Position numbers and translations under genes: made by a program
Notes under the pieces: model-generated
The model's input: only the letters and a program-made list of their open reading frames with translations
Database searches by the model: none
What the model was told of the DNA's origin: nothing
NCBI RefSeq assembly: GCF_002252985.1
Contig: NZ_NHPJ01000092.1
Coordinates: 21,629 to 85,628, forward strand
From: Halorubrum halodurans
GTDB lineage: Archaea; Halobacteriota; Halobacteria; Halobacteriales; Haloferacaceae
Length of the DNA stretch: 64,000 nt
Direction of reading: 5' to 3'
Shown: positions 24,369-49,873 of the stretch, one piece after another
Numbering within the stretch: position 1 is the first letter of the stretch
Layout of the letters: every line of letters starts with the position of its first letter

Positions 24369-25568
24369 TCACCACGCCCCGCGGAGCACGCCCTCGATAC
24401 GCTCCGGGGTGGCGTCGATCCCGGCCGGCGCCCGATCCATCGGCGGGTCCTCGGCGACGAACGCCGCGATCGCGGGGAGGTCGTCCTCGCGGACGGCGTC
24501 GACGTCGCGGAGGCGGGTCGGGACGGGGAGCGCGTCGCGGACGGCCGCGGCCGCCTCGACGACCGCCTCCGCGACCGCGTCGTCGTCGCGGCCCTCGGCG
24601 TCGATCCCGAACCCCGCGGCGAGCGCCCGGCGGCCCGCGTCGGCCTCCTCGAGGAGGTACGCGAGGACGTGCGGGGCGACGACCGCGTGGATCGCCCCCT
24701 GTTGGACGTCGTACCGGCGGGCGAAGCCGTGGCCGAACGCGTGGATGACGCTGATCTTCCGGTCGATCTGGACGAGGAGCGCGCCCGCGACCGCCCGGTC
24801 CATCGCGGCCGCCTCGTCGCCGGCGCGGTCGCCCGCGACGACCGGGAGCGCCCCGGAGAGGAGCCGGATCCCGTGGATCGCGGTGGCGTCGCTGACGGGC
24901 GAGGCGTCGCGGGCGTACGTCGTCTCGATCCCCTTGTCGAGGCCGTTCATCGCGGAGCCGGCGAGGGCGGACCGGGGCGTCGTCTCGAAGAGGTCGGGGT
25001 CGAGCAGGTCGACGGCCGGCATCGCGGAGCCGCGCACCGGGACGGGCTGGCCCGTCGTCGACGCGGCGGCGGAGAGCACCTCGAGCGACCCGCCGGCCGA
25101 GAGGTCCGCGCCCGCGAACGTGGTCGGGACCGCGACCACGGGGAGGGCCGGATCCGCGGTCGGCGGCTCGATCGACCCCTCGCGCGCCTCGGCCTCGAGG
25201 GCCGCGAGATCGCGGCCGTCCGCGGCGAGGACGGCGGCCTGCCTGGCGACGTCGAGGCTGCTCCCCCCGCCGACCGCGACGAGGGCGTCCGCCTCCGCCT
25301 CGGCGGCCGCCTCGAGGAGTTCGAAGGCGGTCTCGGCCCGCTTCGCCGGCGTCGTCCCGTCGAAGGTCCCGGCGTGTCGGTCGCCGAGGCCCGCCCGGAT
25401 CGGCCCCATGAGGTCGTCGTTCGCGCCGACGTTCGAACCGCAGACGACGAGCGCGTCGCCGATCCCCCGGTCGGCGAGCGACGCCTCGAGGTCGGCGACC
25501 CGTCCGCGTCCGTACAGTACGTCACAGCCGTCGTACGTCGACTCGAACCGGTCCGCGATCGGTAACAT
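24369..25568 (-). CDS. iron-containing alcohol dehydrogenase family protein
   Basis: A 399-residue type III (iron-dependent) dehydrogenase. The nucleotide-binding VAVGGGSSLDVARQAA lies near residue 100. The metal-site region reads IHAFGHGFARRYDVQQGAIHAVVAPHVL, with the HxxxH pair and second His, plus an upstream Asp in MNGLDKGIET. It resembles the maleylacetate-reductase/alcohol dehydrogenase branch; the substrate is unknown. The ATG at 25568 (MLPIADRF) is chosen over a GTG five codons earlier. It is divergent from the tubulin-like operon. Confidence 0.85.
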   Translation of the reverse strand: MLPIADRFESTYDGCDVLYGRGRVADLEASLADRGIGDALVVCGSNVGANDDLMGPIRAGLGDRHAGTFDGTTPAKRAETAFELLEAAAEAEADALVAVGGGSSLDVARQAAVLAADGRDLAALEAEAREGSIEPPTADPALPVVAVPTTFAGADLSAGGSLEVLSAAASTTGQPVPVRGSAMPAVDLLDPDLFETTPRSALAGSAMNGLDKGIETTYARDASPVSDATAIHGIRLLSGALPVVAGDRAGDEAAAMDRAVAGALLVQIDRKISVIHAFGHGFARRYDVQQGAIHAVVAPHVLAYLLEEADAGRRALAAGFGIDAEGRDDDAVAEAVVEAAAAVRDALPVPTRLRDVDAVREDDLPAIAAFVAEDPPMDRAPAGIDATPERIEGVLRGAW

Positions 25569-25610
25569 GCCAGTTCGTACCACGGCGACCGGTTTGTAGC
25601 TGTGGGAGAA

Positions 25611-25710
25611 CGGAGCCGCGGGGAACGGATCGGTGCCGTGGAAAGCGGATCGGAGCCGCGGGGAGCGGATCGGAGCCGCGGGGAGCGGATCGGAGCCGTG
25701 GGGAGCGGAC
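25611..25710. repeat. five tandem 20-bp repeats
   Basis: Five consecutive 20-bp units begin at 25611, 25631, 25651, 25671 and 25691. The consensus is CGGAGCCGCGGGGAGCGGAT; units 3 and 4 are identical, and units 1, 2 and 5 differ at one, four and two positions. They sit between the dehydrogenase and the tubulin-like operon, about 120 bases before the latter's start. The exact 20-bp period, close to two helical turns, suits a multi-site operator but also slippage. Confidence 0.85.
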
Positions 25711-25793
25711 GGATCCGATACGTAGCCCGAGCGCGCCGATCGGCGCCGATTCGTTTTCGGGAGCTGTCAAAAACATATCCAGCCATCGAATAA

Positions 25794-25800
25794 TTTATAG
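25794..25800 (+). promoter_or_regulatory. TATA box of the tubulin-like operon
   Basis: TTTATAG inside an A+T-rich stretch (25783-25808), 29-35 bases before the ATG at 25829, consistent with a leaderless operon transcript. Confidence 0.5.
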
Positions 25801-25828
25801 ATTGTTGTAAGGATCGTTGAGTGTCAGC

Positions 25829-28800
25829 ATGAATCTCCCAAGCCGGATATTTGCGATCGGGGGCGCTGGGAAGGCCATTACCTACGAGCTGCTGAAGGCC
25901 GATTGGGTCCAGGAGGCGATCCTGCGGCCCCGCCCGAATCCCGAGTCGTTGACCGTGACCGTGATCGACACGGCGGAGGAGGAGGAGAACCGAGACCTCG
26001 AACGGATCAAGGAGATCGAACAGCAGATCCAGGAGACCAAGGACCGCCTCCGTTCGGAACACACCGGTCGACCGGGGGAGATAACGATCGAGTACCTTCC
26101 GCTCACGCGGAACATCCAGCTCCACGACCAGAACGACCTCATCGGGGAGGAGGCGGTGCCGCGCATCGCCTCCGGGGTCGGCATGGAGGAGGAGAACTGG
26201 TGGCTCCAGCCGGAGTTCATCAACGAGAACCTCGACTTCGCCACCGGCGTCGTCCGGAAGCGCGGGCTCGGGAAGGGGCTCTACTACAAGGCGTACGCCG
26301 AGGACGACGACGTGCGGACGGCCATCGACCTTCCGGGTCGCGGGAAGGTCGCAGTCATCGCCGGCCTGGGGGGCGGCTCCGGCTCCGGGATCTTCATCGA
26401 CCTGGTCAAACACCTCAAACGCACCCAGCGGACGGCCGAGATCACGCTGTTCGGCGTCCTTCCGAACGACGACGAGGGCGACGCGGAGAACGCCAACGCG
26501 CACGCCGCGCTCTCGGAGCTCGAGTACCTCAGCCTCCAGGACGAGGACCTGTTCAAGGACCGCATCCTCATCCCGATCGATCCCACCGGCTTCGGCGGAA
26601 AGAAGGCCAACATCCTCCAGAGTTCGGACGCCCTGCTCGAGTTCGACCGGGCCGCGATCTACCTGATCGCGACCTACTACAACATGATGGACATGGAGGA
26701 CCCGTTCGCGGACACGCCCTCCTACGCCCCCTTCATCATCGGGATCCCGCAGGTCCTCCGGTACAACGTCGACGCGATACAGGACGCCAAGACCGTTACG
26801 AAGGACATCCTGAACGCCAAACAGGACGCCCTCGAGGCGGAGGCGGACATCTACGCGGGCGTCGACCGGTTCCTCTCGCGCGAGTGGAGCCCGGACGGGA
26901 TGAACGGCGAGCTCCACGACTCCGACCGGACGGACCTCGAGGCGCGGCTCAACAACGTGAAGTCGCTGCTCGATCTCGACCTGTTCACCGAGCTCGACTA
27001 CGAGTCGGTCTCGATCTACCGCGAGATCGTCTCGGAGGCGGAGATGGAGGCCGACGACATCGTCGAGCTCATCGAGGTGATCGGCGGCTCGATCCGCGCC
27101 GGCACCGCCGAGGTGAGCAGCGACGGCGAGCAGTTCGTCGACAGCATCGACAAACAGCTCGGCGACGTGATCCGCGACGAGCTGAATCGCCTCGCCCACC
27201 GGAAGGACCTCCTCGTGCGGCTCCGCGCGGTCGACGACAACCGCGTCGAGAGCACGATCAGCTACCTCCTCGCGTTGGAGGACGAGGGGATCAACGCGGG
27301 CGTCCGGCTCAACCAGCTCGAGGCCAAACTGGAGGAGGCCACGGAGCGACGTGACCGGCTCCAGTCCGACCTGGAGGACGCCGACGAGGAGCTGGAGGAG
27401 CGACGCCGCTCCCAGCAGGACGAGGTCGACCGCCGCGTCGACGAGTGGGAGCGGTCGGTTCGGCCGGTCTACGAGGAGTACGAGGACTGTCGGTCGATCG
27501 ACGCCGAGCGCCTGGGCGACGACCTCGAGATGGCCCTCGAGACGTACGGTCGCGAGGTGAAGAACGCCGAGACCGAAGACCAGCTCGAGGCGGTGAGCGA
27601 CGGACAGGTCCGAAGCACGCTCAACGAGCTCTCAGAGGAGTTCGACCGCGTCGGGATCAACGTCTCCGACACCGAACGGCGCATCAACGCCTCGCTGGCC
27701 GATCTGGCGGACGCCAAACAGGCGTTCATCCAGATGAACCAGGACGAGGGGACGCTCGAGTCGATCCTGCCGTGGGACACCTCCGGCGAGGAGGAGCGCA
27801 AGCAGGCACAGAAGAACTACCGGATGAAGCGCAACCAGCTCGACGACAACGAGGTGTTCACGATCTCCCGCGCCGGGGACTCGTTGTCGATCGAGCTCGA
27901 GTTCTCCGTCGGCAGCCTCCAGCGGACGATAGAGGAGGAGCTCGAGGACCGTCGCCGCGAGATCGTCGCGGAGACGCGCGCCGAGCTCGAGACCGACAGC
28001 CCGCGCGCGCTGGAGGAGGTCGAACGCCAGCTCGACTCGGGCGCGAACTTCTCCGAGATCGCTCGCGAGTTCGAGGCGGTGATCAAAGACGAGGTCATCG
28101 AGACCGACGACGTCGAGCGGCGGCGCGACGAGCTCCGGTCGGAGCTCGAGGACGCGGAGCACAGGGCCGACCTCTACGAGGGGACGGTCAGCCTCTTCGA
28201 GGAGCTGAACGGGCCGCGGGACGCGTTCATCAACGCGCAGAACCGCTACCGGAACCTGCGCGAGAACTACAACGAGAGCCGGGAGACCTCGGTCTCGACG
28301 GAGGACGAACAGTACCGCTACGTCAAGACCGTCAAGCCGCACGACATCCTCCAGCTCAGGGACGACGCGGACATCGCGGAGAGCAAGCTGTTCGACGACG
28401 AGACGGAGCGCCAGCGGCTCCGCGGCTCCCTAGAGGAGCTCGCGAAGAACGCGCACAACCCCAAGTACACCGGGATCCGGAAACGCCGGATCAGCGGCGA
28501 CCGCTCGCGGTACAACGACATGAACATCGTCGTCGGGGTGATGAGCCGGGCGATAAACCAGATCGGCGACGTGGCCGACCTCAAGCCCGTCTTCCAGGGC
28601 GCGTACAACCTGGGTGCCGGCAGCGAGAACTTCGCGTCGTTCCCGGTCGAGGCCGGCGGCAGCTGGGACATCGGGCTCGGGATCTTCATCGACGGGATCT
28701 TCCTGGACAACCTCCGTGCGGAGGTCGAAGCCGACGGCTACCAGACCGGCTACCGGGCCAAGGAGGCGTCCGACGACACCGACATCCTGGTCCATCACAC

Positions 28801-28999
28801 CTACGGCCTCGACGACGGATACTACGTCCGGCGGAACGAGGTGTTGAACCTCGAGAACCCCAACGACACGCAGTTCTTCCTCAGAGACGAGGGGGAGATC
28901 AAACGCGACCTCCTGGAGGAGCACATCGAGAACGTTCCGTTCACCGACGAGGAGGCGGAGGCCGACGCACCCTCCGAGACGCTCGACGGGGGGGAGTGA
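25829..28999 (+). CDS. large tubulin/FtsZ-like GTPase with coiled coils
   Basis: A 1056-residue protein of the tubulin superfamily, closest by eye to the Tubulin_2-type proteins rather than FtsZ or CetZ. The nucleotide-binding start is FAIGGAGKAITYEL (GGAG at 11-14). The tubulin signature GGGSGSG is at residues 181-187 (Ser replacing the usual Thr). GVLPNDDEGDAENANAHAAL and FIIGIPQVLRYNVDAI follow. Charged coiled coils occupy ~490-600 and ~675-820 (LNQLEAKLEEATERRDRLQS...). A conserved-looking globular C-terminal domain (~880-1035) comes last. It has no membrane helix, so it is cytoplasmic. The ATG at 25829 begins the nucleotide-binding strand. The stop is 7 bases before a membrane GTPase gene. 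A filament-forming or scaffold role is inferred. Confidence 0.78.
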   Translation: MNLPSRIFAIGGAGKAITYELLKADWVQEAILRPRPNPESLTVTVIDTAEEEENRDLERIKEIEQQIQETKDRLRSEHTGRPGEITIEYLPLTRNIQLHDQNDLIGEEAVPRIASGVGMEEENWWLQPEFINENLDFATGVVRKRGLGKGLYYKAYAEDDDVRTAIDLPGRGKVAVIAGLGGGSGSGIFIDLVKHLKRTQRTAEITLFGVLPNDDEGDAENANAHAALSELEYLSLQDEDLFKDRILIPIDPTGFGGKKANILQSSDALLEFDRAAIYLIATYYNMMDMEDPFADTPSYAPFIIGIPQVLRYNVDAIQDAKTVTKDILNAKQDALEAEADIYAGVDRFLSREWSPDGMNGELHDSDRTDLEARLNNVKSLLDLDLFTELDYESVSIYREIVSEAEMEADDIVELIEVIGGSIRAGTAEVSSDGEQFVDSIDKQLGDVIRDELNRLAHRKDLLVRLRAVDDNRVESTISYLLALEDEGINAGVRLNQLEAKLEEATERRDRLQSDLEDADEELEERRRSQQDEVDRRVDEWERSVRPVYEEYEDCRSIDAERLGDDLEMALETYGREVKNAETEDQLEAVSDGQVRSTLNELSEEFDRVGINVSDTERRINASLADLADAKQAFIQMNQDEGTLESILPWDTSGEEERKQAQKNYRMKRNQLDDNEVFTISRAGDSLSIELEFSVGSLQRTIEEELEDRRREIVAETRAELETDSPRALEEVERQLDSGANFSEIAREFEAVIKDEVIETDDVERRRDELRSELEDAEHRADLYEGTVSLFEELNGPRDAFINAQNRYRNLRENYNESRETSVSTEDEQYRYVKTVKPHDILQLRDDADIAESKLFDDETERQRLRGSLEELAKNAHNPKYTGIRKRRISGDRSRYNDMNIVVGVMSRAINQIGDVADLKPVFQGAYNLGAGSENFASFPVEAGGSWDIGLGIFIDGIFLDNLRAEVEADGYQTGYRAKEASDDTDILVHHTYGLDDGYYVRRNEVLNLENPNDTQFFLRDEGEIKRDLLEEHIENVPFTDEEAEADAPSETLDGGE

Positions 29000-29006
29000 T
29001 CGGTAG

Positions 29007-30449
29007 ATGACGGCGATCGGTGAGTTCCTCGAGGAGAACGGCGAGAAGGTGTTTCTCGTCGTCTACTTCGCCGTGATGGTGATCGTCGCCGGGCCGCTGT
29101 TCCTCTCGCTCGGCGAGGCGTGGCAGGCGTCGGACATCGTCAGGCCGGCGATCCTCGCGTTGAACCCGCTCGTGGGCGTCACCCTCGAGCAGTTCTCCGC
29201 GCTGATGTTCGGGCTCTACCTCGGGCTGTTGGTCCTCGTGACCCTCGACCCGAAGAAACGGGTCCAGGGCATCCTGCTGTGGCTGGGAACCGTCTCCGCG
29301 CTCGTCGCCCTGCTGTCGATCGGGCTGTTCATCCCGAATATCGACTTCGCGGCCAACATCGTGTGGGTCCTCGCCGGCTTCGTCGGCGGCGGGCTCGTCG
29401 GCGGCGGTCCCAAACTGCTCGAGGTCCGGACGGCGAGCGCCCTCGAGTTCCGCCGGTCCGCGACGATCCTGTTCTACCTGATCAGCGCCATCGTCGTCGG
29501 CGGGCTGATCGAGTACCACGTCAACTTCCCGCAGTTCCTCCAGGTCTCGGCCGAGACCGTGCGGATCGTGCCGCCGAGCCCGACCGTGAGCGTCGAGTGG
29601 GCCAGCATCGGCGTGAACACGCTCATGGCGGCGGTGTTCGTGGTCACGCTGCGCCGCTTCGTGACGTACGACGCAGAGGAGAACTTCTTCGTGTTGGGTC
29701 CGCAGGGGTCGGGGAAGTCGCTGTTCCTCGTCGGGAAGTACCTGGCCGCGCTCGACGACGCGGTCGGCCGCGAGGCCGACACGCCGCTGAACCCGAGCAG
29801 CGACCTCATGGAGCTGGTCGGGTCGCTCGACGCGGCGTCGAAGGACACCGGCTGGAAGCTCGACGCGACCGGGCAGACCGACGTCGAGGACCTGAACTTC
29901 AACTTCGTCGACGGCCGCGTGTTCCCGAAGAACATCCAGCTGTCGAGCCTCGACTACGCGGGCGAGTACCTCGAGCGCCTCCCGAACGCGCTGATGAGTC
30001 CGGACGACGAGATCGACAACTCGACGCTCCGGCTGCTCGCCCAGCGGGTTCGAGACGCCAACACGCTGATCCTGATCATCGACGTCGAGCGGTACCACAA
30101 CAACGAGCCGCTGGAGATAGAGCCGTACTTCGACATTCTGGACGTCGCCTCGAACAAGGACGTGCTGTTGGTCGCCACGAAGTGTGACATCCTCGCGGAG
30201 GAGTTCCGGGACAAACAGGCGCTCGAGGCACACCAGTACTTCGACGAGTTCCAGGAGTTCGTCAGCGAGACGCTGATCGAGAACAACCAGACGGTTCGGA
30301 CGCTCGTACAGGACACCTCCGGGTCGAAGATCCACCCGGTGTACTACCAGACGACGACCGACGAGAACGGCGAACGCGTTCCGATGCGCGACCGCAACGG
30401 GAACGTGATGACCGTCGGATTCGACGAACTCCTCGAGAAAATGGGGTGA
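29007..30449 (+). CDS. six-helix membrane protein with GTPase domain
   Basis: A 480-residue protein. Residues ~10-215 contain about six membrane helices (VFLVVYFAVMVIVAGPLFLS, GILLWLGTVSALVALLSIGL and others). The cytoplasmic half is a P-loop GTPase: G1 is GPQGSGKS at 231-238, G3 is DYAG at 316-319, G4 is TKCD at 391-394, and a G5-like SGSK follows. The strand LILIIDVERYHNN before G4 supports a Ras/Rag-like fold. It lies 7 bases after the tubulin-like gene and 6 bases before the Ig-like gene, so it is operonic. It could anchor or regulate the tubulin-like polymer at the membrane (inference). An ABC or AAA ATPase is less likely because G4 is present. Confidence 0.72.
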   Translation: MTAIGEFLEENGEKVFLVVYFAVMVIVAGPLFLSLGEAWQASDIVRPAILALNPLVGVTLEQFSALMFGLYLGLLVLVTLDPKKRVQGILLWLGTVSALVALLSIGLFIPNIDFAANIVWVLAGFVGGGLVGGGPKLLEVRTASALEFRRSATILFYLISAIVVGGLIEYHVNFPQFLQVSAETVRIVPPSPTVSVEWASIGVNTLMAAVFVVTLRRFVTYDAEENFFVLGPQGSGKSLFLVGKYLAALDDAVGREADTPLNPSSDLMELVGSLDAASKDTGWKLDATGQTDVEDLNFNFVDGRVFPKNIQLSSLDYAGEYLERLPNALMSPDDEIDNSTLRLLAQRVRDANTLILIIDVERYHNNEPLEIEPYFDILDVASNKDVLLVATKCDILAEEFRDKQALEAHQYFDEFQEFVSETLIENNQTVRTLVQDTSGSKIHPVYYQTTTDENGERVPMRDRNGNVMTVGFDELLEKMG

Positions 30450-30455
30450 CAACGG

Positions 30456-32195
30456 ATGCCATCACTACGCGTATACGACACGAAAGGAAACGAACACTCG
30501 CCGACGGGCGGCGGCGGCCGGTCGAACGAACGGGTGAAGGACCTGTTTTACGACGGAGTGAGGCTGGCGATCGAGGCCGGCCGCGAGCGCAAGTTCACGA
30601 TGTTCTTCCGGGCGCGAGAGACCCGGAACGCCCGCACCGAGCAGTTCTACGCCGTGTACACCACCCGCGACGGTTCGATGCGGGAGTTCATCGACGCGTT
30701 GAGAGACCGGATCGAGACCGAGTGGGGGTACACGATAGACGACTCCGCCGACGACATGAGCGTCTTCCGGGCGATCGACGCCGGCAACACCTCGCTTCCG
30801 GGCTCCGGTCAGGACAGGGCGATACTCGAGGAGCTCGTCGGGTCCCGCCGGGGCGGGACGGTCGGCGTGCGCGACGCCGAGAGCGCGCTCGGGCTCGTCA
30901 ACGAGCTCATGGGCACGTACGACCGCGCCGCGGTCGCCGACTCGCCGGAGTCGAACGCGCTGTCCGACTTCGACCTGGTCGTCGCCCCGAACGGGTCGAG
31001 CGGCATCGCCCCGATCGGCGACACGGAGGGACAGTGGGAGTCGACGAAGGAGTCGATCCGCAGCCGGCTCATCGACGAGGAGATCGCCTCGATCAACGAG
31101 TCGGTCCAGACGCTCTCGCGGGAGCACGGCCTCTCGAGCTCGGAGATCCGGCGGCGAGTGGGCCAGCGCGTCCCGGCGTTGAGCGCGCCGAGTTCGGGCG
31201 GCTCCACGACCGACCGGCTCTCGACGTCCGGCTCCTCGAGCCGGTTCGACATGGCGGAGATCGGCAAGTACGTCGCCATCGCCGCAGTGGTGTTGCTCGT
31301 GTTGATCGGTGGGTTCGTCGGCGCGAGCGAGCTCGGATATATTGGTGGTGGGGGCGGTGACGTCGCTGCCACGGTCAACGGGACCGTCTACGGTGCCGAC
31401 GACGAGCCGCTGACGACGGCCACCGATGTCACTCTCGAACCAACTGCCGCCTCCACCGGGAACGAGACCGCGCCGGAACCGGAGACGGTCACGGCCGAGA
31501 ACGGGGAGTTCGCCTTCCAGAACGTGTCGGCCGGCAACTACACCCTGTCGGTCGCGTCGACGGAGCGGTTCGCGTACGACAACGAGTCGGTCGAGGTCCC
31601 CGGGAACACGACCGAGCTTGAGGTCTCGCCGGCGGACGGGATCGTGAGCGGTCAGGTCGTGGACGCGGAGACGGGCGACCCGCTCTCGACCGACGGCGAC
31701 GGCGAGGTCGACGCGTCGATCGAACTCGTCGACGGGGCGGGCGAGACCGTTGCCTCCGCGACCGGCGGGAGCTACGAGTTCACCGTCGGTCTCGACGGGA
31801 GCTACACGCTACGCGCCAGTGCCGACGGGTACGAGTCGGCCGAACGGTCCGTGGGATCGTTCGGCGAGCAGGAATCGATCGAACTCGAATCGACGGGCGG
31901 GACCCAGGAAGAGGCGGAATCGACGGGCGTAACCCTACAAGGAGAGGTCACCAACGCCACGAACGGGAACGCGATCGAAGGTGCGACCGTCGATGTAGTA
32001 GTCGGTCTGGGGGAGGTTTATGAAGGGACGAGCGAGTTAACAGGGGATTACGAGGTCACCGGGATCCCTCCGGGTGACACGTACCGGGTCGAGGTGAGTG
32101 CCGATGGGTACGAGGAGGCCTCACGGCAGGTCGACTTCAGCGGTGAGAATCAGGTCTTTAAGTCGGACTTCGAACTCGAACCGACCCAGTCGTAA
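30456..32195 (+). CDS. single-pass protein with external Ig-like repeats
   Basis: A 579-residue type II-like membrane protein. Residues 1-265 are a cytoplasmic region of unknown fold (MPSLRVYDTKGNEHSPTGGG... EFIDALRDRIETEWGYTIDD). One helix, residues ~270-291 (YVAIAAVVLLVLIGGFVGAS), crosses the membrane. The outside holds three beta-sandwich domains of the carboxypeptidase-regulatory-like/Ig type (~305-390, ~395-480, ~490-575), each with a G-x-V-x-(D/N)A ... YxLxVxADGYE pattern. Several Asn-x-Ser/Thr sites (NGT, NET, NVS, NYT, NTT) could be N-glycosylated. Third gene of the tubulin-like operon; it may link the cytoplasmic machine to the cell surface (inference). Confidence 0.75.
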   Translation: MPSLRVYDTKGNEHSPTGGGGRSNERVKDLFYDGVRLAIEAGRERKFTMFFRARETRNARTEQFYAVYTTRDGSMREFIDALRDRIETEWGYTIDDSADDMSVFRAIDAGNTSLPGSGQDRAILEELVGSRRGGTVGVRDAESALGLVNELMGTYDRAAVADSPESNALSDFDLVVAPNGSSGIAPIGDTEGQWESTKESIRSRLIDEEIASINESVQTLSREHGLSSSEIRRRVGQRVPALSAPSSGGSTTDRLSTSGSSSRFDMAEIGKYVAIAAVVLLVLIGGFVGASELGYIGGGGGDVAATVNGTVYGADDEPLTTATDVTLEPTAASTGNETAPEPETVTAENGEFAFQNVSAGNYTLSVASTERFAYDNESVEVPGNTTELEVSPADGIVSGQVVDAETGDPLSTDGDGEVDASIELVDGAGETVASATGGSYEFTVGLDGSYTLRASADGYESAERSVGSFGEQESIELESTGGTQEEAESTGVTLQGEVTNATNGNAIEGATVDVVVGLGEVYEGTSELTGDYEVTGIPPGDTYRVEVSADGYEEASRQVDFSGENQVFKSDFELEPTQS

Positions 32196-32234
32196 CCATG
32201 CGTCCCGACCGAACCCTCTCCGGGAGCGACCTAA

Positions 32235-32516
32235 CGATCACCGCCGGAGAGCGGATCGGGACGAGCACACACTGGGGAGACGTTCGACGGACGAACCGCC
32301 GACGGCAGCGATCCCGTCGCGATAAGAGTGCCTCGTGGCCGAATTCCGGAGGCCGAGTACGACCGGTTCGACTCGATCGCGGCACAGTAGCGGAACGTCT
32401 CCGGTCCCGAGACCATCAGAACGCTCGTCGACTGGAAGATCGGTCCCAAGCCGTGGGTCGCCGTCGAATGCGTTCCCGGCGAATTCGAGCAGTCGAGTTC
32501 AGAGGCCACCACTTGA
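32235..32516 (+). pseudogene. remnant reading frame with in-frame TAG
   Basis: The 350 bases between the Ig-like gene and the convergent lipoprotein carry one frame that reads like protein on both sides of a TAG at 32388-32390: upstream DPVAIRVPRGRIPEAEYDRF, downstream ETIRTLVDWKIGPKPWVAVE, ending at a TGA at 32514-32516. There is no start codon or promoter. Codon choice matches host genes, so this looks like a decayed gene fragment. The family is not recognised. Confidence 0.4.
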
Positions 32517-32545
32517 AGCGGCATTCCTTTGATCGTTGAACAGCT

Positions 32546-33214
32546 CTATTCGTTTCCCTCCAACGATTCGAACAGCCGCTCGATCCGCTCGCGTTCGCCC
32601 TCGACGCCTGCGGGGTACGCGCCAGCGACGAGGACCACGTCCTCGCCACGCTCGACGATGGTGAGGTGGATGTACCCCCGCTCCTCGGTGCCGTCGGGGA
32701 GGACGACGGTCGCCTCGTAGACGCTCACCTCGGTGGTCTCGCCGAACACCTCCTGTTCGATCGTCTCGTCGAGCTCCGGGTCGCGGATCTCGCCCGCGTA
32801 CTCGGCGCTGATCTCGCCGCGCGCCTCGTCGATCAGCTCGTCCTCGTCCATGTTGGCGAGCGGGCTGAGCTGCTGTCCCGCGGCGGAGACGCCGGGCGTG
32901 CTCACGACCGCGAACACCGACTGCTCCTGGCCGGTCAGCTCCGACTCGATCTCCCGGAGGTACGCGCGGACCTCGGTGCGCGCGGTGAACTCGCGGCGCT
33001 GGCCGAACTCCTCGAACTCCTCCTCAACGACGACCGTCTCGTTTCGGACCTGCTCGAAGCCGGTCTCCTCGACGCTCGACTCCGCCGGCTCGGCCGGCTC
33101 CGCGGACCGCTCGATCTCCTCCTGTGTCGCGATCTCGACGGCGTCGGTGCACCCGCTCACGGCGATCGCCCCCGCCGTTGCCCCCGCAACCAGAAATCGA
33201 CGACGTGATGGCAT
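32546..33214 (-). CDS. DUF6517-type Tat lipoprotein
   Basis: A 222-residue exported lipoprotein. The N-terminus MPSRRRFLVAGATAGAIAVSGC combines a twin-arginine signal with a lipobox whose Cys (residue 22) should be lipid-modified, leaving the protein on the outer face of the membrane. The mature part is acidic (EEFEEFGQRREFTARTEVRAY...) and resembles the haloarchaeal DUF6517 family of unknown function. It is convergent with the tubulin-like operon and upstream of the PQQ-pseudokinase on the same strand. Confidence 0.8.
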   Translation of the reverse strand: MPSRRRFLVAGATAGAIAVSGCTDAVEIATQEEIERSAEPAEPAESSVEETGFEQVRNETVVVEEEFEEFGQRREFTARTEVRAYLREIESELTGQEQSVFAVVSTPGVSAAGQQLSPLANMDEDELIDEARGEISAEYAGEIRDPELDETIEQEVFGETTEVSVYEATVVLPDGTEERGYIHLTIVERGEDVVLVAGAYPAGVEGERERIERLFESLEGNE

Positions 33215-33317
33215 TCGGTGACACGTTCTCCGTCGACAGATATATCACTTGTCCATCCATTCTCAGCGTCGATATCGAACGGAGCCGGTTCGGGACCACC
33301 CTGTCGGCGGCGGTCGC

Positions 33318-35903
33318 TCAGTCGAAGGCCGCCAGCCTGAGCACCCGCGCGAACTCGCCGATCGAGTCGTACCGCTCGTCCGGGTTCGGGTCGATGGCGC
33401 GGGTTATCGGTCGGTCGAGCGCCGACGGCACGCCGGCGTGCTCGCTCGGCTTCGCGGGCCGGTGGTCGGCTGGCGGGCTCCCGGTCGCGGCGTGATACGC
33501 GAGCGCGCCGAGCGCGTACGTGTCGGGTTTGCCCCGCCAGAGCGGCTCCTCGGAGTCGGAGAGCTGCTCGGGCGGGGTGTACGGCGAGGGCGCCCGCGTC
33601 CCGTGATCCGGCGTGTCCCGCACCGCCGAGAGGCCCCAATCGTCGACGAGGCCGGTCGGTTCCCCCGCCGACCCGAGGACGCGGATCGTCTCGGGCGAGA
33701 GGTAGTAGTGTCTGACCGTGTAGCGGCTGGCCTGCGACATCGCCTCGGCGGCGTCGACGACCGGCGACAGCCGGGCCGCGGGATCCGCGGGCGGGTCGTC
33801 GAGGAACTCGCCGAGCGTGGCGACGTCCCCGATCGGGTCGGTGAGCACCCACGGGTACGGCTCGGTTCCGGACCCGTACACCGTGACGATCCCGTCGTAG
33901 TGGCTGACGCTGCCCCAGTCGGTGGCGACGGAGCGGAACCGGTCGGCGAGCTCCCCGCCGTCCGCGGCGTCGGGAAGCGCCAGGACCCGCCCGTCGACGC
34001 CGTCGATCCGTTCGTCGGTGACGGCGTACGCCGCCAGCGGCCCGACGGACTCCAGCGGTTCGACCGACGAGAGCTCGTCCACCGCCGCGAGCAGCGCGTC
34101 GCCGTCCGCCGATCCGGCGTCGCTGTCGACTCGAGAGTCGTCGCCGTCGTCGCCCGCCGCGGCCGCCGCCGCAGTCGGCGACGTCGGCTCGCCGTCGACG
34201 CCGTCGTCCGCCGACGTCTCCCTCCCGGCGCTTCGCTCTCTCCCGGTGTCGCTCGTCGCCGGCTCGCCGGCTTTCGGTTCGCTCGCCGCGTTCGTCGTCG
34301 ACGGTCCCTCCGACGGGGAGGCGGCGTCCGGTCCCGCTCCCGACGACGCGTCGGTCGACCCCCCGCCGAGGAATCGGTACGCCGCGAGCGCGCCGACCGT
34401 GAGCCCGCCGGCCGCGCCGAGGAGCCCGATCGTCGGGATCCGACCGATCGGTCCGGTCGACCCCGCCCCGTCCGCCGTCGAGAGTTCCCCGGACTCGGCT
34501 CCGTCGGTCGACTCGGTCGACGGGTCGACATCGCCGTCGTCCCCGCCGCCCCCGTCCGTGGATCCGTCCGCGCCGGAGGAGCCTCCGGATCCCGTCGATC
34601 CGGACGGGGCGCTCCCGTCGCTGCCGGAACCGCCACCCTCCGCGAACTCGACGCCCGCCGCCACGTGGTGGTGTCCGAGCGTCCCGAGCGCCGTCCGTGA
34701 CCCGACGCCGTGGCCGTCATCCGCCAGGTCGACGACGGTCGGCGAGGAGAAGACCGCGTCCGTCGGGTCGTCGAAGAGCCACCGCCGTCCGCCGTCGTCG
34801 GTTTCGAACCCGTACACCTCCCCGGCAGCGTTGCCGACGAAGACGGTCCCCGCTCGGACCGTCGGCGAGGAGTTGACCTGGTCGCCGGTGTTCTTCGACC
34901 ACACCGGATCGCCGCCCTTGGCGTCGAGCGCGTACAGCGACCCGTCGACGGAGCCGACGTAGACCGTTCCGTCGACGACCGTCGGCGAGGAGACGACGCC
35001 GGCCACCCCGTCGGTCGTCCACCGCGCGTCGCCCGTCTCGGCGTCGAGCGCGTGGAGCCCGACGTCGACGCCGACGGATCCGACGTACACGGTTCCGTCG
35101 ACGACCGCCGGCGAGGAGAAGACGACGTCCTCGAGATCGGTACGCCAGGCCGTCGAACCCGCTTCGACGTCGACCGCGTACAGCCGCTCGTCGAACGAGC
35201 CGACGTACAGCGTCCCGTCGACGACCGCCGGCGACGAGGAGATCCCGCCCTCCGGGGACGTGACCCGCCACCGCTCCGTTCCGTCCGCCGTCGCGAGCGC
35301 GAGGACGTCGCCGGTTTCCGTCCCGACGTACAGCGTCTCGCCGTCGACGGCCGGCGAGGAGACGACGGCCGGCGACGGCGAGACGCGCCACGCCTCCGTA
35401 CCCTCCCCCCGGTCGAGCGCGACGATCGCGCCGGAGCTGGCGCCGACGAACACGCGATCGGTGATCACGGTCGGCGAGGAGACGATCCCGCCGTCCTCGC
35501 CGTCGCCGATCTCGAAGGACCACACGGACGACCCGTCCGTCGCGTCGACCGCGTACAGCGACCCGTCCGTGGATCCGACGTAGGCCACGCCGTCGACGAC
35601 CGTCGGCGACGAGGAGACCGCGTCTCCGGGCTCCGTGAACCGCCAGACTGAGTCGCCGGTCGCGGCATCGATCCCGTACAGCGACCCGTCGTCGGAGCCG
35701 ACACAGACGATCCGGTCCGGCACGTGGTTCGTCGCCGACGCGGTCGAGAGCCCTCCGGCGACCCCCCACGTCGAGACGCCGGCCGCCGACGACACGCCGG
35801 CCGTCCAGCGGAGCACGGACCGCCTGGTGAACCGATCCCGACGCACCGCCTCTCCGGCACCGTCCCGATCGCGACTCGCCGCCGATCCGTCGGGTCCCGT
35901 CAT
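33318..35903 (-). CDS. transmembrane PQQ-propeller / pseudokinase fusion
   Basis: An 861-residue protein. A twin-arginine motif at 26-32 (TRRSVLR) is followed by a hydrophobic stretch. Residues ~60-420 are about eight PQQ/quinoprotein-like propeller repeats (VVDGTVYVGSVDGSLYALDA and variants). A Gly/Ser/Asp linker leads to a helix, IGLLGAAGGLTVGALAAYRF (~489-508). After an Ala/Asp linker, residues ~640-861 resemble a protein-kinase C-lobe (YYLSPETIRVL, VDDWGLSAV, KPDTYALGALAYHAATG). The HRD and DFG motifs are altered (RHYYLSPE; DDWG) and no ATP-binding lysine lobe is obvious, so a pseudokinase is favoured. Topology would put the propeller outside and the kinase-like part inside. Confidence 0.78.
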   Translation of the reverse strand: MTGPDGSAASRDRDGAGEAVRRDRFTRRSVLRWTAGVSSAAGVSTWGVAGGLSTASATNHVPDRIVCVGSDDGSLYGIDAATGDSVWRFTEPGDAVSSSPTVVDGVAYVGSTDGSLYAVDATDGSSVWSFEIGDGEDGGIVSSPTVITDRVFVGASSGAIVALDRGEGTEAWRVSPSPAVVSSPAVDGETLYVGTETGDVLALATADGTERWRVTSPEGGISSSPAVVDGTLYVGSFDERLYAVDVEAGSTAWRTDLEDVVFSSPAVVDGTVYVGSVGVDVGLHALDAETGDARWTTDGVAGVVSSPTVVDGTVYVGSVDGSLYALDAKGGDPVWSKNTGDQVNSSPTVRAGTVFVGNAAGEVYGFETDDGGRRWLFDDPTDAVFSSPTVVDLADDGHGVGSRTALGTLGHHHVAAGVEFAEGGGSGSDGSAPSGSTGSGGSSGADGSTDGGGGDDGDVDPSTESTDGAESGELSTADGAGSTGPIGRIPTIGLLGAAGGLTVGALAAYRFLGGGSTDASSGAGPDAASPSEGPSTTNAASEPKAGEPATSDTGRERSAGRETSADDGVDGEPTSPTAAAAAAGDDGDDSRVDSDAGSADGDALLAAVDELSSVEPLESVGPLAAYAVTDERIDGVDGRVLALPDAADGGELADRFRSVATDWGSVSHYDGIVTVYGSGTEPYPWVLTDPIGDVATLGEFLDDPPADPAARLSPVVDAAEAMSQASRYTVRHYYLSPETIRVLGSAGEPTGLVDDWGLSAVRDTPDHGTRAPSPYTPPEQLSDSEEPLWRGKPDTYALGALAYHAATGSPPADHRPAKPSEHAGVPSALDRPITRAIDPNPDERYDSIGEFARVLRLAAFD

Positions 35904-36026
35904 GCCGAACAGTAGTCAGACCGATAGCATGAGTGTTTCCTCATCGGCCGGGACCGCCGTGACGCCACAAGAGCCATTCGGGTCCGCCACTGAGACGGTA
36001 CCGACGATCGATCGCGTCCACACGAC

Positions 36027-36866
36027 ATGAAACGCTACCCGCCGATCCCGGCCGTAGCCGACGCGTCCGAGGATCTCCTCACCGGCCACCTCTGGCTCCT
36101 CGAACTGATCGACGGCTGGCACCTCCGGTTCCGGATGGCCGACTCCGGGCTCATCCGGTTCGGCGACCGCGAGGCCGTCTACGACGACCCCGACGACCTC
36201 CCGGACGCGTACGGCCACGCGGTCCGACACGTCCGGGAGCGGTTCGACCGGGAGGCGCTCCGGAGCGCGGTCGACGACGTGACCGACGTCGTCTTCTTCG
36301 GCGTGGCTACCGGTCGGCGTCGGGTCGAGTACGACTGGGAGCGGCTCCCCTCGTTTCTCGGCCACGACGTGTGGTCCGAAACCGCGGGATCGTTCCGGCC
36401 GCCGGACGCCGCGGAGGCGATCTTCGAGCGACTCGGTCTCGATCCGGTGAACGCCGTCGAACGCGAGCGCCGCGCCCGCGACTTCGATCCCGAGTCGTAC
36501 GCGGTTCCGTCGTCGGCGTGGTACGACGGGCCCGCCGCGGGCGTCGTCGTCCGGAACAAGGCGGGCGGCCGGGGCGTGATCCGGAGACCGGAGCGGTCGA
36601 CGTCAGTGGACCGGGGGACGGTGGGTGCCGACCTCGTGGAGGCGGCCGCAACTCACGCGGATCGGGAGCGGCTGGTGCGGATCGTCGCCCGGATCAAGGA
36701 TCGCGGTGAACCGGTCACGGTCGACGCGCTCACGGAGCGGGCGTTCGAGGCGTTCCTCCGGGAGCGGCACCGGTTGGTCGCCGAGAACGGCGAGAACTGG
36801 GAGGCCTTCCGACCGGAATTCCGTACCCGGGCTCAGGCGTTCCTCGACGACGCTGAGGCCGGTTGA
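36027..36866 (+). CDS. RNA-ligase-like protein lacking catalytic residues
   Basis: A 279-residue protein whose overall pattern matches haloarchaeal RNA ligase-family proteins (covalent nucleotidyltransferase fold): MKRYPPIP, GHLWLLELIDGWHLRF, VVFFGVATG, PSFLGHDVW, WYDGPAAGVVVRNKAGG. The key residues are replaced: motif I KxDG reads LIDG (Leu27 for Lys), the motif III Glu is Val93, and the motif IV Glu is Ala171. Adenylate transfer should therefore be impossible. The C-terminal ~95 residues are helical. The reading frame is intact, so it may be a repurposed binding protein. It is divergent from the PQQ-pseudokinase, 123 bases away. Confidence 0.65.
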   Translation: MKRYPPIPAVADASEDLLTGHLWLLELIDGWHLRFRMADSGLIRFGDREAVYDDPDDLPDAYGHAVRHVRERFDREALRSAVDDVTDVVFFGVATGRRRVEYDWERLPSFLGHDVWSETAGSFRPPDAAEAIFERLGLDPVNAVERERRARDFDPESYAVPSSAWYDGPAAGVVVRNKAGGRGVIRRPERSTSVDRGTVGADLVEAAATHADRERLVRIVARIKDRGEPVTVDALTERAFEAFLRERHRLVAENGENWEAFRPEFRTRAQAFLDDAEAG

Positions 36867-46768: not shown

Positions 46769-49700
46769 ATGAGCGAACGAACGGATACCGCCGAGGAGGA
46801 CGAGAGGTCCCCGCTCGTCCTCCTCGAACGCTGGTACCACGTCCCAGCGATCGCGGGCGTCTTCGCGTTTATGTTGTGGACTCGACTCCGATCGTACGGC
46901 AACTTCGTCCGTGACGGCGAGGTGTACTTCCGGGGGAACGACCCGTGGTACCACCTCCGGGAGACGAGCTATCTGCTCGAGAACTGGCCGAACACGCTCC
47001 CGTTCGACCCGTGGACTGGGTTCCCCTTCGGTAACCAAGCTGGACAGTTCGGGACCCTCTGGGACCACATCATGGCCGTCGGCATCTGGGTCGCCAGCCC
47101 GGTCATGGGTGGCCCGGAGGAAGTCATGCTCGTCATGGCTCCGATCGCCGGGGCACTCGTCGCGGTTCCCACGTTCTTCATCGCGCGCCGGTTCGTCGAC
47201 CGTCCGGCCGCCCTCGTGTCGTCCGGCGTGCTCGCGCTCCTCCCGGGCACGTTCTTCAGCTACTCGCTGGTCGGGTTCCCCGACCACAGCGCCGCCGAGG
47301 TGTTCTTCCAGTCGGTCGCCGTCCTCGGGTTCCTCGTCGCCTTCGCGGTCGCGGAGCGTGACGCACCCGTCTGGGAGCTCGTCGTCGACCGCGACTGGGA
47401 CGCCCTCCGCCGACCCGCCGCGTACGCCGCGGCCGCGGGCGTCGCGCTCGGCCTCTACATCTGGACGTGGCAGCCGGGGATCCTGATGGTCGGGTTCACC
47501 GGCGTCTACCTCGCGGTCAAGATCACGAGTGACACGTACCACGGCAGGAGCCCGGAACCGATCGCCTTTGCCGGCTCCGTCGCGATGGCCGTTTCGGGTC
47601 TGATGCAGGTGATCCCTCTCGACACGTTCTCGTTTCAGGTGACGGACTACTCGCTACTCCAGATCGTCCTCCCGCTCGGCGTCGCCGCGGGAGCGGTCTT
47701 CCTCGCGTGGCTCGCCCGCCAGTGGGAGGCGCGCGACGACCTGACTCCCGGCACCTATCCGGCGGCCGTCGGCGGCCTGATCGTCGCCGCCGCCGGCTTC
47801 CTCTGGCTGGCGCTTCCGTCGCTGTGGTCGACGCTGTCGAGCAACCTCCTGAACTTCGTCGGCTTCAGCGCCCGCGCCACGTTCCGCACCATCGGCGAGG
47901 GGCAGCCGCCGCTTCAGAACGCCTCCTTCGCCGACTTCGTCCTCGGCCAGTACGGGCTCGCCTTCTTCCTCGCGCTCGCGGCGGTCCTCTACGTCGTCGC
48001 GCGTCCGCTCTACCGCTCCGACGACCCGAACCACACGCTGTACATCCCCGCGGCGCTCGCCGTCGTCGGCTCCGTCTACGCGGTCCCCCAACTGTACGAC
48101 GCGATCGGCGGGCTCGTCGGCGTGAGCTGGCAGGTGGTCGGACTCGTCATCGCGGCGGGGTTCCTCGTCGGCGCGACGTTCCTCGTGGAGTACGACGCCG
48201 AGGAGCTGTACTTCGTCGTGTGGGCGGCGTTCATCGGGAGCGCCGCGTTCACGCAGAGCCGCTTCAACTACTACCTCGCGGTGGTCGTCGCGGTCGGCGC
48301 GGCGTACTTCCTCCAGGTCACCTTCGACGCGATCGACCTGGGATCGCTCGACGCCCTCCGCGAGATCGAGGGGTGGCAGGTGTTGACCGCGCTCGCGGTG
48401 CTCGCCGTCCTCCTCGTACCGCTCGTGGGCGTCGCCACGCCGGTGTGGACCGCGGGCAACTCGACCGGGCCGGGCAGCGTCGTCGAGTGGGACGAGAGCC
48501 TCCAGTGGATGAACGAGGAGACGCCGCATCCGGGCGAGCTCGAGGGCGCCGACAATCCGATGGAGTACTACGGCACCTACGAACGACCCGACGACGGCGA
48601 CTTCGAGTACCCGGAGGGCGCCTACGGCGTCCAGTCGTGGTGGGACTACGGCCACTGGATCACCACCCGCGCGGAGCGGATCCCGAACGCCAACCCGTTC
48701 CAGCAGAACGCCGCCGAGGCGGCGAACTACCTGCTCGCGCCGAGCGAGGAGGCCGCACGGGAGGTGCTCGCGGGCCAGAGCACGGAGGGCGAACACACCC
48801 GGTACGTGATGGTCGACCGCCAGATGGCCTCGCCGAACTCCAAGTTCGGCGCGCCGGTCACGTTCTACGACGCGGGCAACGTGACGCGGGAGGACTTCAA
48901 CCGCGTCCTCTATCAGCAGACCCAGCAGGGCGGGTTCGGCACGGTGATGCAGGTGAACACCCAGCGCTACCACGAGAGCCAGATGATCCGGCTGTACGAA
49001 CACCACGGGAGCGCGGTCGAGCCCGAGCCGGTCGTCGTCGACTGGGACACGCAGGCGGCCGAGACGGCGGGCGGCGAGCAGGTCGAACTCGCCGTGCTGC
49101 CGGAGGATCCGAGGACGATGATCCGGCAGTTCGAGAACGTCTCCGCGGCCCGTGAGTTCGTCGAGGAGGACGGGAGCGCGCAGGTCGGCGGCGTCGGGGG
49201 GCTCCCCTCCGAGCGCGTCGAGGCGCTCGAACACCACCGGCTCGTCCACGCCACCGAGTCGCAGGGACGCTCCGCCTCCGCGGGACAGGTGGGCGTGCTC
49301 CAGCAGCTCGGCGTGAACTTCCAGGACGTCCTCGGCGAGTCGGCGCTGGCCGCGTTCCGTGACGACTGGGTGAAGACGTTCGAGCGCGTCCCCGGCGCGA
49401 CGATCGAGGGGAGCGGCGCGGAGCCCGGCGAGGAGGTCCGAGCGACGGTGGAGATGGAGAAACCCTCCGGCGCGACCTTCGAGTACACGCAGTACGCGAC
49501 CGCCGACTCCGACGGGCACTTCGAGTTCACGGTGCCGTACTCGACGACGGGCTACGACGAGTTCGGTCCCGAGGAGGGGTACACGAACACGAGCGTGCGG
49601 GCGACCGGGCCCTACGAGGTCACGACGGGAACGACGACCGACGAGGACCTCTACACGACCCGGAGCGTCGGGCAGGTCGAGGTCACGGAGGCACAGGTGA

Positions 49701-49873
49701 TCGGCGAGGACGACGCCGCCGCGACCGTCGAACTCGAGGAGGAGATCGTCGACTGTCCCTCGGGCGATCCCGAGTGTCCGGTCGGTGACGGCTCGAGCGG
49801 CTCCGGGGACGGCGGGACGAACGAGTCGAGCGGCTCGCTCGCCGCGTCCGACCGCGTCGCCGTGGCCGCCTGA
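46769..49873 (+). CDS. aglB: archaeal oligosaccharyltransferase AglB
   Basis: The 1034-residue STT3-family enzyme that transfers the glycan from dolichol phosphate to Asn in N-x-S/T sites of S-layer and other surface proteins. The N-terminal ~590 residues hold about thirteen membrane helices with the first external acidic motif, FRGNDPWYHLRET (~55-67). The catalytic WWDYG motif is at residues 624-628, followed by HWITTRAERIPNANPFQQNA. The C-terminal domain is outside and ends with a Ser/Gly-rich segment. It is the key enzyme of the adjacent glycosylation island. The stop lies 6 bases before a DUF368 gene. Confidence 0.95.
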   Translation: MSERTDTAEEDERSPLVLLERWYHVPAIAGVFAFMLWTRLRSYGNFVRDGEVYFRGNDPWYHLRETSYLLENWPNTLPFDPWTGFPFGNQAGQFGTLWDHIMAVGIWVASPVMGGPEEVMLVMAPIAGALVAVPTFFIARRFVDRPAALVSSGVLALLPGTFFSYSLVGFPDHSAAEVFFQSVAVLGFLVAFAVAERDAPVWELVVDRDWDALRRPAAYAAAAGVALGLYIWTWQPGILMVGFTGVYLAVKITSDTYHGRSPEPIAFAGSVAMAVSGLMQVIPLDTFSFQVTDYSLLQIVLPLGVAAGAVFLAWLARQWEARDDLTPGTYPAAVGGLIVAAAGFLWLALPSLWSTLSSNLLNFVGFSARATFRTIGEGQPPLQNASFADFVLGQYGLAFFLALAAVLYVVARPLYRSDDPNHTLYIPAALAVVGSVYAVPQLYDAIGGLVGVSWQVVGLVIAAGFLVGATFLVEYDAEELYFVVWAAFIGSAAFTQSRFNYYLAVVVAVGAAYFLQVTFDAIDLGSLDALREIEGWQVLTALAVLAVLLVPLVGVATPVWTAGNSTGPGSVVEWDESLQWMNEETPHPGELEGADNPMEYYGTYERPDDGDFEYPEGAYGVQSWWDYGHWITTRAERIPNANPFQQNAAEAANYLLAPSEEAAREVLAGQSTEGEHTRYVMVDRQMASPNSKFGAPVTFYDAGNVTREDFNRVLYQQTQQGGFGTVMQVNTQRYHESQMIRLYEHHGSAVEPEPVVVDWDTQAAETAGGEQVELAVLPEDPRTMIRQFENVSAAREFVEEDGSAQVGGVGGLPSERVEALEHHRLVHATESQGRSASAGQVGVLQQLGVNFQDVLGESALAAFRDDWVKTFERVPGATIEGSGAEPGEEVRATVEMEKPSGATFEYTQYATADSDGHFEFTVPYSTTGYDEFGPEEGYTNTSVRATGPYEVTTGTTTDEDLYTTRSVGQVEVTEAQVIGEDDAAATVELEEEIVDCPSGDPECPVGDGSSGSGDGGTNESSGSLAASDRVAVAA

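Follow-up and report, generated by a model that had tools for sequence, protein, structure and literature searches.

A portable haloarchaeal cassette joining a tubulin-superfamily protein, a membrane GTPase and a surface protein with a hypervariable ectodomain

The haloarchaeon Halorubrum halodurans carries, within the stretch of 64,000 nucleotides analysed here (contig NZ_NHPJ01000092.1, positions 21,629 to 85,628, called the window below), three consecutive plus-strand genes which are designated T, G and S. T (25829-28999, ATG start) encodes a tubulin-like protein of 1056 amino acids belonging to FtsZ-like family 1, that is, a Tubulin_2 protein; G (29007-30449, 480 amino acids) is a polytopic membrane protein with a C-terminal P-loop GTPase; and S (30456-32195, 579 amino acids) is a single-pass protein with a conserved cytoplasmic domain and a CarboxypepD_reg ectodomain. 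T-G-S is a real, conserved and portable system, of a kind already predicted and with a new anatomy. An earlier reading made from the letters alone (the sequence-only reading) had described a three-gene unit with gaps of 7 bases between T and G and 6 bases between G and S, and the coordinates of the open reading frames agree with it in every one of these points.

Linkage, empty site and the fast-evolving surface protein

Relatives of T were collected by scanning one genome per prokaryote species, and 43 were found. At all 27 loci with a T of at least 36% identity (L081-L107), T is followed by G and then by S on one strand, and the hosts belong to Halorubrum, Halobellus, Halonotius, Halohasta, Halorussus, Halorientalis, Natrarchaeobius, Salinadaptatus, Haloterrigena, Halovenus, Halarchaeum, Halobonum, Salinibaculum, Haloferax, Halogranum, Haloarcula and uncultured relatives. 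Because this order is kept at 27 of 27 loci despite flanks that otherwise differ among more than a dozen haloarchaeal genera, the linkage goes beyond chance, so that the three genes do travel together in other genomes, as the sequence-only reading supposed. A second, separately drawn set of loci from the same family, which overlaps with the 27, agrees on the order. The close T clade is present in 13 of the 53 genomes of the genus, and the genomes of the 73% T clade have T-G-S at another place. A raw tally of matches in 166 of 171 genomes was set aside as a measure of distribution, since most of these matches are ordinary FtsZ/CetZ proteins. The source genome itself has five ordinary FtsZ/CetZ proteins besides T, so T is not the division protein. 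The control genome of Haloferax volcanii gave no Tubulin_2 match.

In five of the six T-lacking genomes of the genus examined, the genes flanking the cassette (24369-25583 and 36027-36866) are adjacent, and in G148 one gene lies between them. In the window the same two genes are set apart, over the interval 25584-36026, by T-G-S, a DUF6517 lipoprotein gene and a gene named PQQk. The unit is therefore larger than the three genes first proposed: the empty site and the phyletic pattern add the lipoprotein and PQQk, a probable pseudokinase with a PQQ propeller, and what is left of a second pseudokinase gene follows S. This cassette with an empty site in relatives is new here; the site is read as presence or absence, and the direction may be gain or loss.

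Orthologues of the DUF6517 lipoprotein (32546-33214, minus strand; PF20127, E=1.6e-38) at 79% identity or more occur only in 8 of the 53 genomes of the genus, namely those with the closest T clade, and those of the PQQk kinase domain (71% or more) only in the same eight. PQQk (33318-35903, minus strand) consists of an exported PQQ β-propeller (PF13570, E=2e-79), a transmembrane segment and a cytoplasmic kinase-like domain, which is probably a pseudokinase because its HRD motif reads HYY. In several relatives S is followed by a further kinase-like gene, which encodes a degenerate kinase, a transmembrane segment and a CarboxypepD_reg ectodomain; in the window, the broken start of such a gene (about 97 residues, 32198-32489, plus strand; the K remnant) matches the intact relatives at 82% over 357 bases by blastn (E=2e-83), and tblastn reads it in two frames with an internal stop. 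The ectodomain of the K gene is related to that of S (48%). The G+C content of T-G-S is 0.65-0.67 vs 0.71-0.76 in the flanking genes.

S has one membrane segment (residues 272-291 by hydropathy) and, outside the membrane, three CarboxypepD_reg stretches (E=3.4e-28), in line with the single-pass topology and the three external β-sandwich domains of the sequence-only reading. These sandwiches make up the hypervariable ectodomain (residues 296-579, 31341-32192), and the cytoplasmic side carries an α/β domain, S-N (residues 1-230, 30456-31145), which was modelled with AlphaFold2 at a pLDDT of 90.6 and is 92-94% identical to its counterparts in close relatives. When the window proteins were compared with those of five close relatives, identity was 94-97% for T, 95-98% for G and 89-94% for the cytoplasmic part of S, vs 49-77% for the S ectodomain, whose repeat number also differs among these six; the DUF6517 protein, which is likewise exported, stays 85-96% identical. 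Evolution is thus much faster in the outward-facing part of S than elsewhere, and this pairing of a conserved cytoplasmic domain with a hypervariable ectodomain is, as judged by sequence comparison, new here. S-N of the window protein has no Pfam family, and nothing significant was found for it in a viral structure library. Its assignment as a GAP1 domain was rejected at the sequence level (no match in the cassette; hhalign probability 0.1), and a longin/DENN-type GTPase regulator is a lead only, the best Foldseek neighbours including FLCN, FNIP2 and DENND10 at E of at least 0.013 and probability of at most 0.4.

The GTPase motifs of G attributed to it in the sequence-only reading are present (GPQGSGKS at 231, DYAG at 316 and TKCD at 391), and their key residues show little or no variation across 22 relatives. 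The six membrane helices of that reading were not confirmed, for hydropathy gives five clear segments (15-33, 60-78, 89-107, 112-130 and 151-169), that is, at least five. G of the window has no DO-GTPase1 or DO-GTPase2 match, and 9 of the 22 relatives match DO-GTPase2 weakly, below the cut-off (best E=0.002). Against solved structures, G gave weak matches alone (best E=0.14).

More distant archaeal T proteins (20-27% identity) often have a pair of GTPases and an S-like protein as neighbours, the genes lying either in line or in divergent orientation. At one of these loci (L111) the S-like N-terminus is fused to a PQQ propeller, and another, in Halorubrum sodomense (L116, 10430-15704), has T, one GTPase, HSP70 and a J-domain protein with CarboxypepD_reg sandwiches. 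In a WOR-3 bacterium (L117, 876-6690), a T homologue is followed by a GTPase matching DO-GTPase2 below the cut-off (E=5e-5), a locus which may possibly be a bridge between the archaeal and bacterial systems.

Fold and domain order of T

T matches PF13809 (Tubulin_2) with E=9.8e-10 and 38.6 bits against a cut-off of 27, and a profile search of Protein Data Bank (PDB) sequences finds FtsZ (E=1.5e-5). In addition, an AlphaFold2 model built from 31 homologues (mean pLDDT 84.5) has CetZ2 of Haloferax volcanii (4b45) as its first Foldseek match in the PDB (E=2.1e-5, probability 1.00), and the best 50 matches are FtsZ, CetZ, TubZ and tubulin chains throughout. The tubulin-like N-terminus that had been read from two nucleotide-binding motifs is thereby supported, and the motifs themselves, in a protein of the length then given, are where they were placed. 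They are the T1 loop GGAG (residues 11-14, 25859-25870) and the T4 loop GGGSGSG (residues 181-187, 26369-26389); five of the seven T4 positions (G181, G182, G183, G185 and G187) are invariant in the 31 homologues.

The tubulin-type GTPase domain through strand β7 comprises residues 1-320 (25829-26788), as delimited by DSSP on the model and by hhalign. Since the hhalign alignment of T with haloarchaeal FtsZ/CetZ covers residues 171-280 (P=2.1e-9), the H7 helix can be placed at about 262-284, and the stretch directly after it, N285-xx-D288-x-E290-D291 (26681-26701), is a candidate T7 loop. Its Asn and acidic pair are largely retained in the clade of the window, and the acids vary or are lost in the distant clade. 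For this family T6-H7 were not identifiable in 2010, according to the main text of Makarova and Koonin (PMC2875224); that H7 and a candidate T7 loop can now be placed is new here. Another acidic motif, DSDRTDL (364-370), was dropped as the T7 loop because hhalign puts H7 at about 262-284 and hence T7 at about 285.

Beyond strand 302-312 the model consists of helices up to about residue 830 (helical and coiled-coil region, about 325-830, 26801-28318) and is α/β thereafter. The conserved α/β C-terminal domain (about 840-1040, 28346-28948) carries the motif WDIGLxxFIxGxFLDN and runs, by DSSP, through helix 858-876, strand 899-905, helix 909-916, strands 935-940 and 947-957 and helix 971-980. This order equals that of the second domain of tubulin, H9-β8-H10-β9-β10-H11. 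No similarity of the C-terminal part to FtsZ/CetZ was seen by hhalign, nor to solved structures in the PDB sequence search. Two short T paralogues of about 563 residues (L108, 5156-6844, and L109, 6992-8686) retain residues 1-320 and the C-terminal domain without the intervening region of about 325-830; their T4 loop is damaged and neither G nor S stands alongside.

Known systems, proposed function and rival explanations

FtsZ-like family 1 was founded by Makarova and Koonin in 2010 (PMC2875224) on the haloarchaeal protein Huta_2051 of 1051 residues, whose locus has three kinase genes, and the partners given there for the family are GTPases, membrane-associated in archaea, and protein kinases. 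The features tested place T in this family: it shares the layout of Huta_2051 (FtsZ-like N-terminus, coiled coil, C-terminal domain) and a similar length, it has PF13809 above the cut-off and the GGGxGxG loop in the FtsZ-like N-terminal domain, and a P-loop GTPase, membrane-associated as in the archaeal members, always adjoins it in the close clade. The extended coiled coil is likewise followed by a C-terminal domain, although this is mixed α/β in T and was described as mostly α in 2010. The frequent kinase partner is matched by the kinase-like domains of PQQk and the K remnant, both degenerate. There is no vWA match in the five cassette proteins, vWA being a frequent but not universal partner in the main text of the 2010 paper, and no OmpA protein in the cassette. 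That main text, for its part, does not contain an S whose ectodomain is hypervariable, an empty site for the cassette, an identifiable H7 and candidate T7, or degenerate kinase domains. In comparison with haloarchaeal CetZ/FtsZ (about 350-450 residues), T shares the tubulin-superfamily GTPase fold, with CetZ2 nearest, but is about 2.5 times longer, has no FtsZ C-terminal domain detectable by sequence and has obligate neighbours.

The sequence-only reading had likened T to the large Tubulin_2 proteins that are found next to GTPases in bacterial systems predicted to serve signalling or conflict, and the comparison is apt. The related tubulin/double-GTPase/HSP70 conflict systems of Kaur et al. 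2020 (PMC7159879), which are proposed and not proven, share with the cassette a tubulin with a C-terminal coiled coil, a membrane GTPase, β-sandwich ectodomains, kinases, and a constant core with variable parts; the two GTPases of distant T relatives and the HSP70 and J-domain protein of L116 are further likenesses. The differences are that the cassette has neither a detected GAP1/GAP1-N2 domain nor a known toxic effector, that the clade of the window has one GTPase, and that the DO-GTPase2 match lies below the cut-off and in relatives of G, not in G of the window. By analogy the cassette may work like the tubulin/DO-GTPase conflict systems; membership of that class fails on GAP1. No experiments on FtsZ-like family 1 or on the systems of Kaur et al. 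were found in the literature searched, and to that extent the sequence-only reading, which knew of no experimental description, was right; the set itself was not undescribed, because the family had been published in 2010. The architecture which that reading gave (tubulin fold, membrane GTPase, outward single-pass protein, conserved linkage) is supported, and the polymer, shape, adhesion and defence that it put forward are suggestions.

The reading that we tentatively prefer is an accessory surface-to-cytoplasm signalling cassette, that is, a GTP-switched scaffold at the membrane which senses at the cell surface and serves recognition or conflict. S would be a rapidly changing β-sandwich receptor outside the cell with a conserved adaptor domain inside, and G a membrane-embedded GTPase switch next to it. 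Binding of an outside partner, such as a virus, a neighbour cell or a surface ligand, would flip G, upon which the cytoplasmic, GTP-binding T would assemble at the membrane as a scaffold or short polymer with its long coiled coil projecting; the PQQ-pseudokinase and the DUF6517 lipoprotein would tune or sense. The proposal thus presumes physical contacts among the proteins, signalling from outside to inside, assembly of T, and a purpose in recognition or conflict instead of housekeeping. It is put forward because T has a tubulin fold, T, G and S are inseparable (27/27), the S ectodomain is variable and the cassette is patchy, and because an additional GTPase is found at distant loci, and HSP70 with a J-domain protein at one, as in the systems of PMC7159879. 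Several points weigh against it. The PADLOC models match none of T, G and S, no toxic or nucleic-acid-cutting effector is encoded in the cassette, and S-N is not detectably GAP1, the defining domain of the bacterial conflict systems; in addition, adhesins and S-layer partners have fast-evolving ectodomains too, and polymerisation of T is a prediction.

The main rival, close behind and somewhat doubtful, is a membrane or envelope remodelling machine, in which T filaments tethered by G and S would shape the membrane or the S-layer contact, giving vesicles, shape or adhesion, and the ectodomain would bind the cell's own surface. A patchy cassette with an empty site and a hypervariable ectodomain is ill-suited to a basic shape function, and close relatives manage without it; nevertheless, all partners are membrane or exported proteins, and β-sandwich repeats fit S-layer or adhesive contacts. 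CetZ proteins govern haloarchaeal cell shape, and CetZ2 is the best structural match of T. This proposal is already found in Makarova and Koonin (PMC2875224). The same authors left standing a T that does not polymerise, which we consider rather improbable: a GTP-dependent scaffold or sensor without filaments, whose long helical region would separate its ends and only gather G, S and kinases. The loss of the candidate T7 acids in the distant clade and the damaged T4 loop of the two short paralogues are consistent with it, whereas the retention of T1, T4, H7 and the T7-like acidic loop in the clade of the window argues against it. Finally, genes are densely packed in haloarchaeal genomes and often follow one another on the same strand, so chance neighbours, or a locus for an ordinary housekeeping cytoskeleton, might be thought of; this is very improbable, being contradicted by an order kept at every close locus with changing flanks and by the lack of the close T clade in most genomes of the genus.

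A bolder form of the signalling-scaffold reading, which is unlikely as a whole, takes T as a complete, split-domain tubulin in which the coiled coil is inserted after β7 and the C-terminal domain supplies H9-β8-H10-β9-β10-H11. T would then form membrane-bound GTP filaments with long coiled-coil arms; G and an outward-facing receptor, diversifying from species to species, would switch them, and the whole would be an archaeal cytoskeletal device for self/non-self recognition or virus sensing. It is suggested by the DSSP order, by the short paralogues, which are without just the coiled coil, and by the hypervariable S ectodomain; the split second domain is unconfirmed by sequence comparison (hhalign against FtsZ/CetZ and the PDB sequence search). 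If the signalling scaffold is true, it would mean that prokaryotes have a way of turning extracellular contact into cytoskeletal assembly, by a tubulin-superfamily protein which serves neither division nor shape and is genetically tied to a GTPase in the membrane and a surface receptor that diversifies. Since many relatives naturally lack the cassette and Haloferax volcanii is without a Tubulin_2 match, the cassette can be added to a tractable laboratory archaeon.

Neighbouring genes at this and other loci

In Halorientalis (L095, 234-2432), the gene directly upstream of T encodes a fusion of a kinase with a good Pkinase match and a periplasmic ligand-binding domain, which suggests sensing. 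At another locus (L086, 13358-15625), the PQQ propeller protein beside S has an MIT-domain match below the threshold (E=6.6e-6, 26.6 bits vs a cut-off of 30). In the window, the segment 37073-46666 has a low G+C content (0.45-0.56) and, from translations read by eye, encodes a flippase-like protein, several glycosyltransferase-like open reading frames and two transposase-like ones, just upstream of an oligosaccharyltransferase-like open reading frame (46769-49873); it looks like a surface-glycan island adjoining the cassette.

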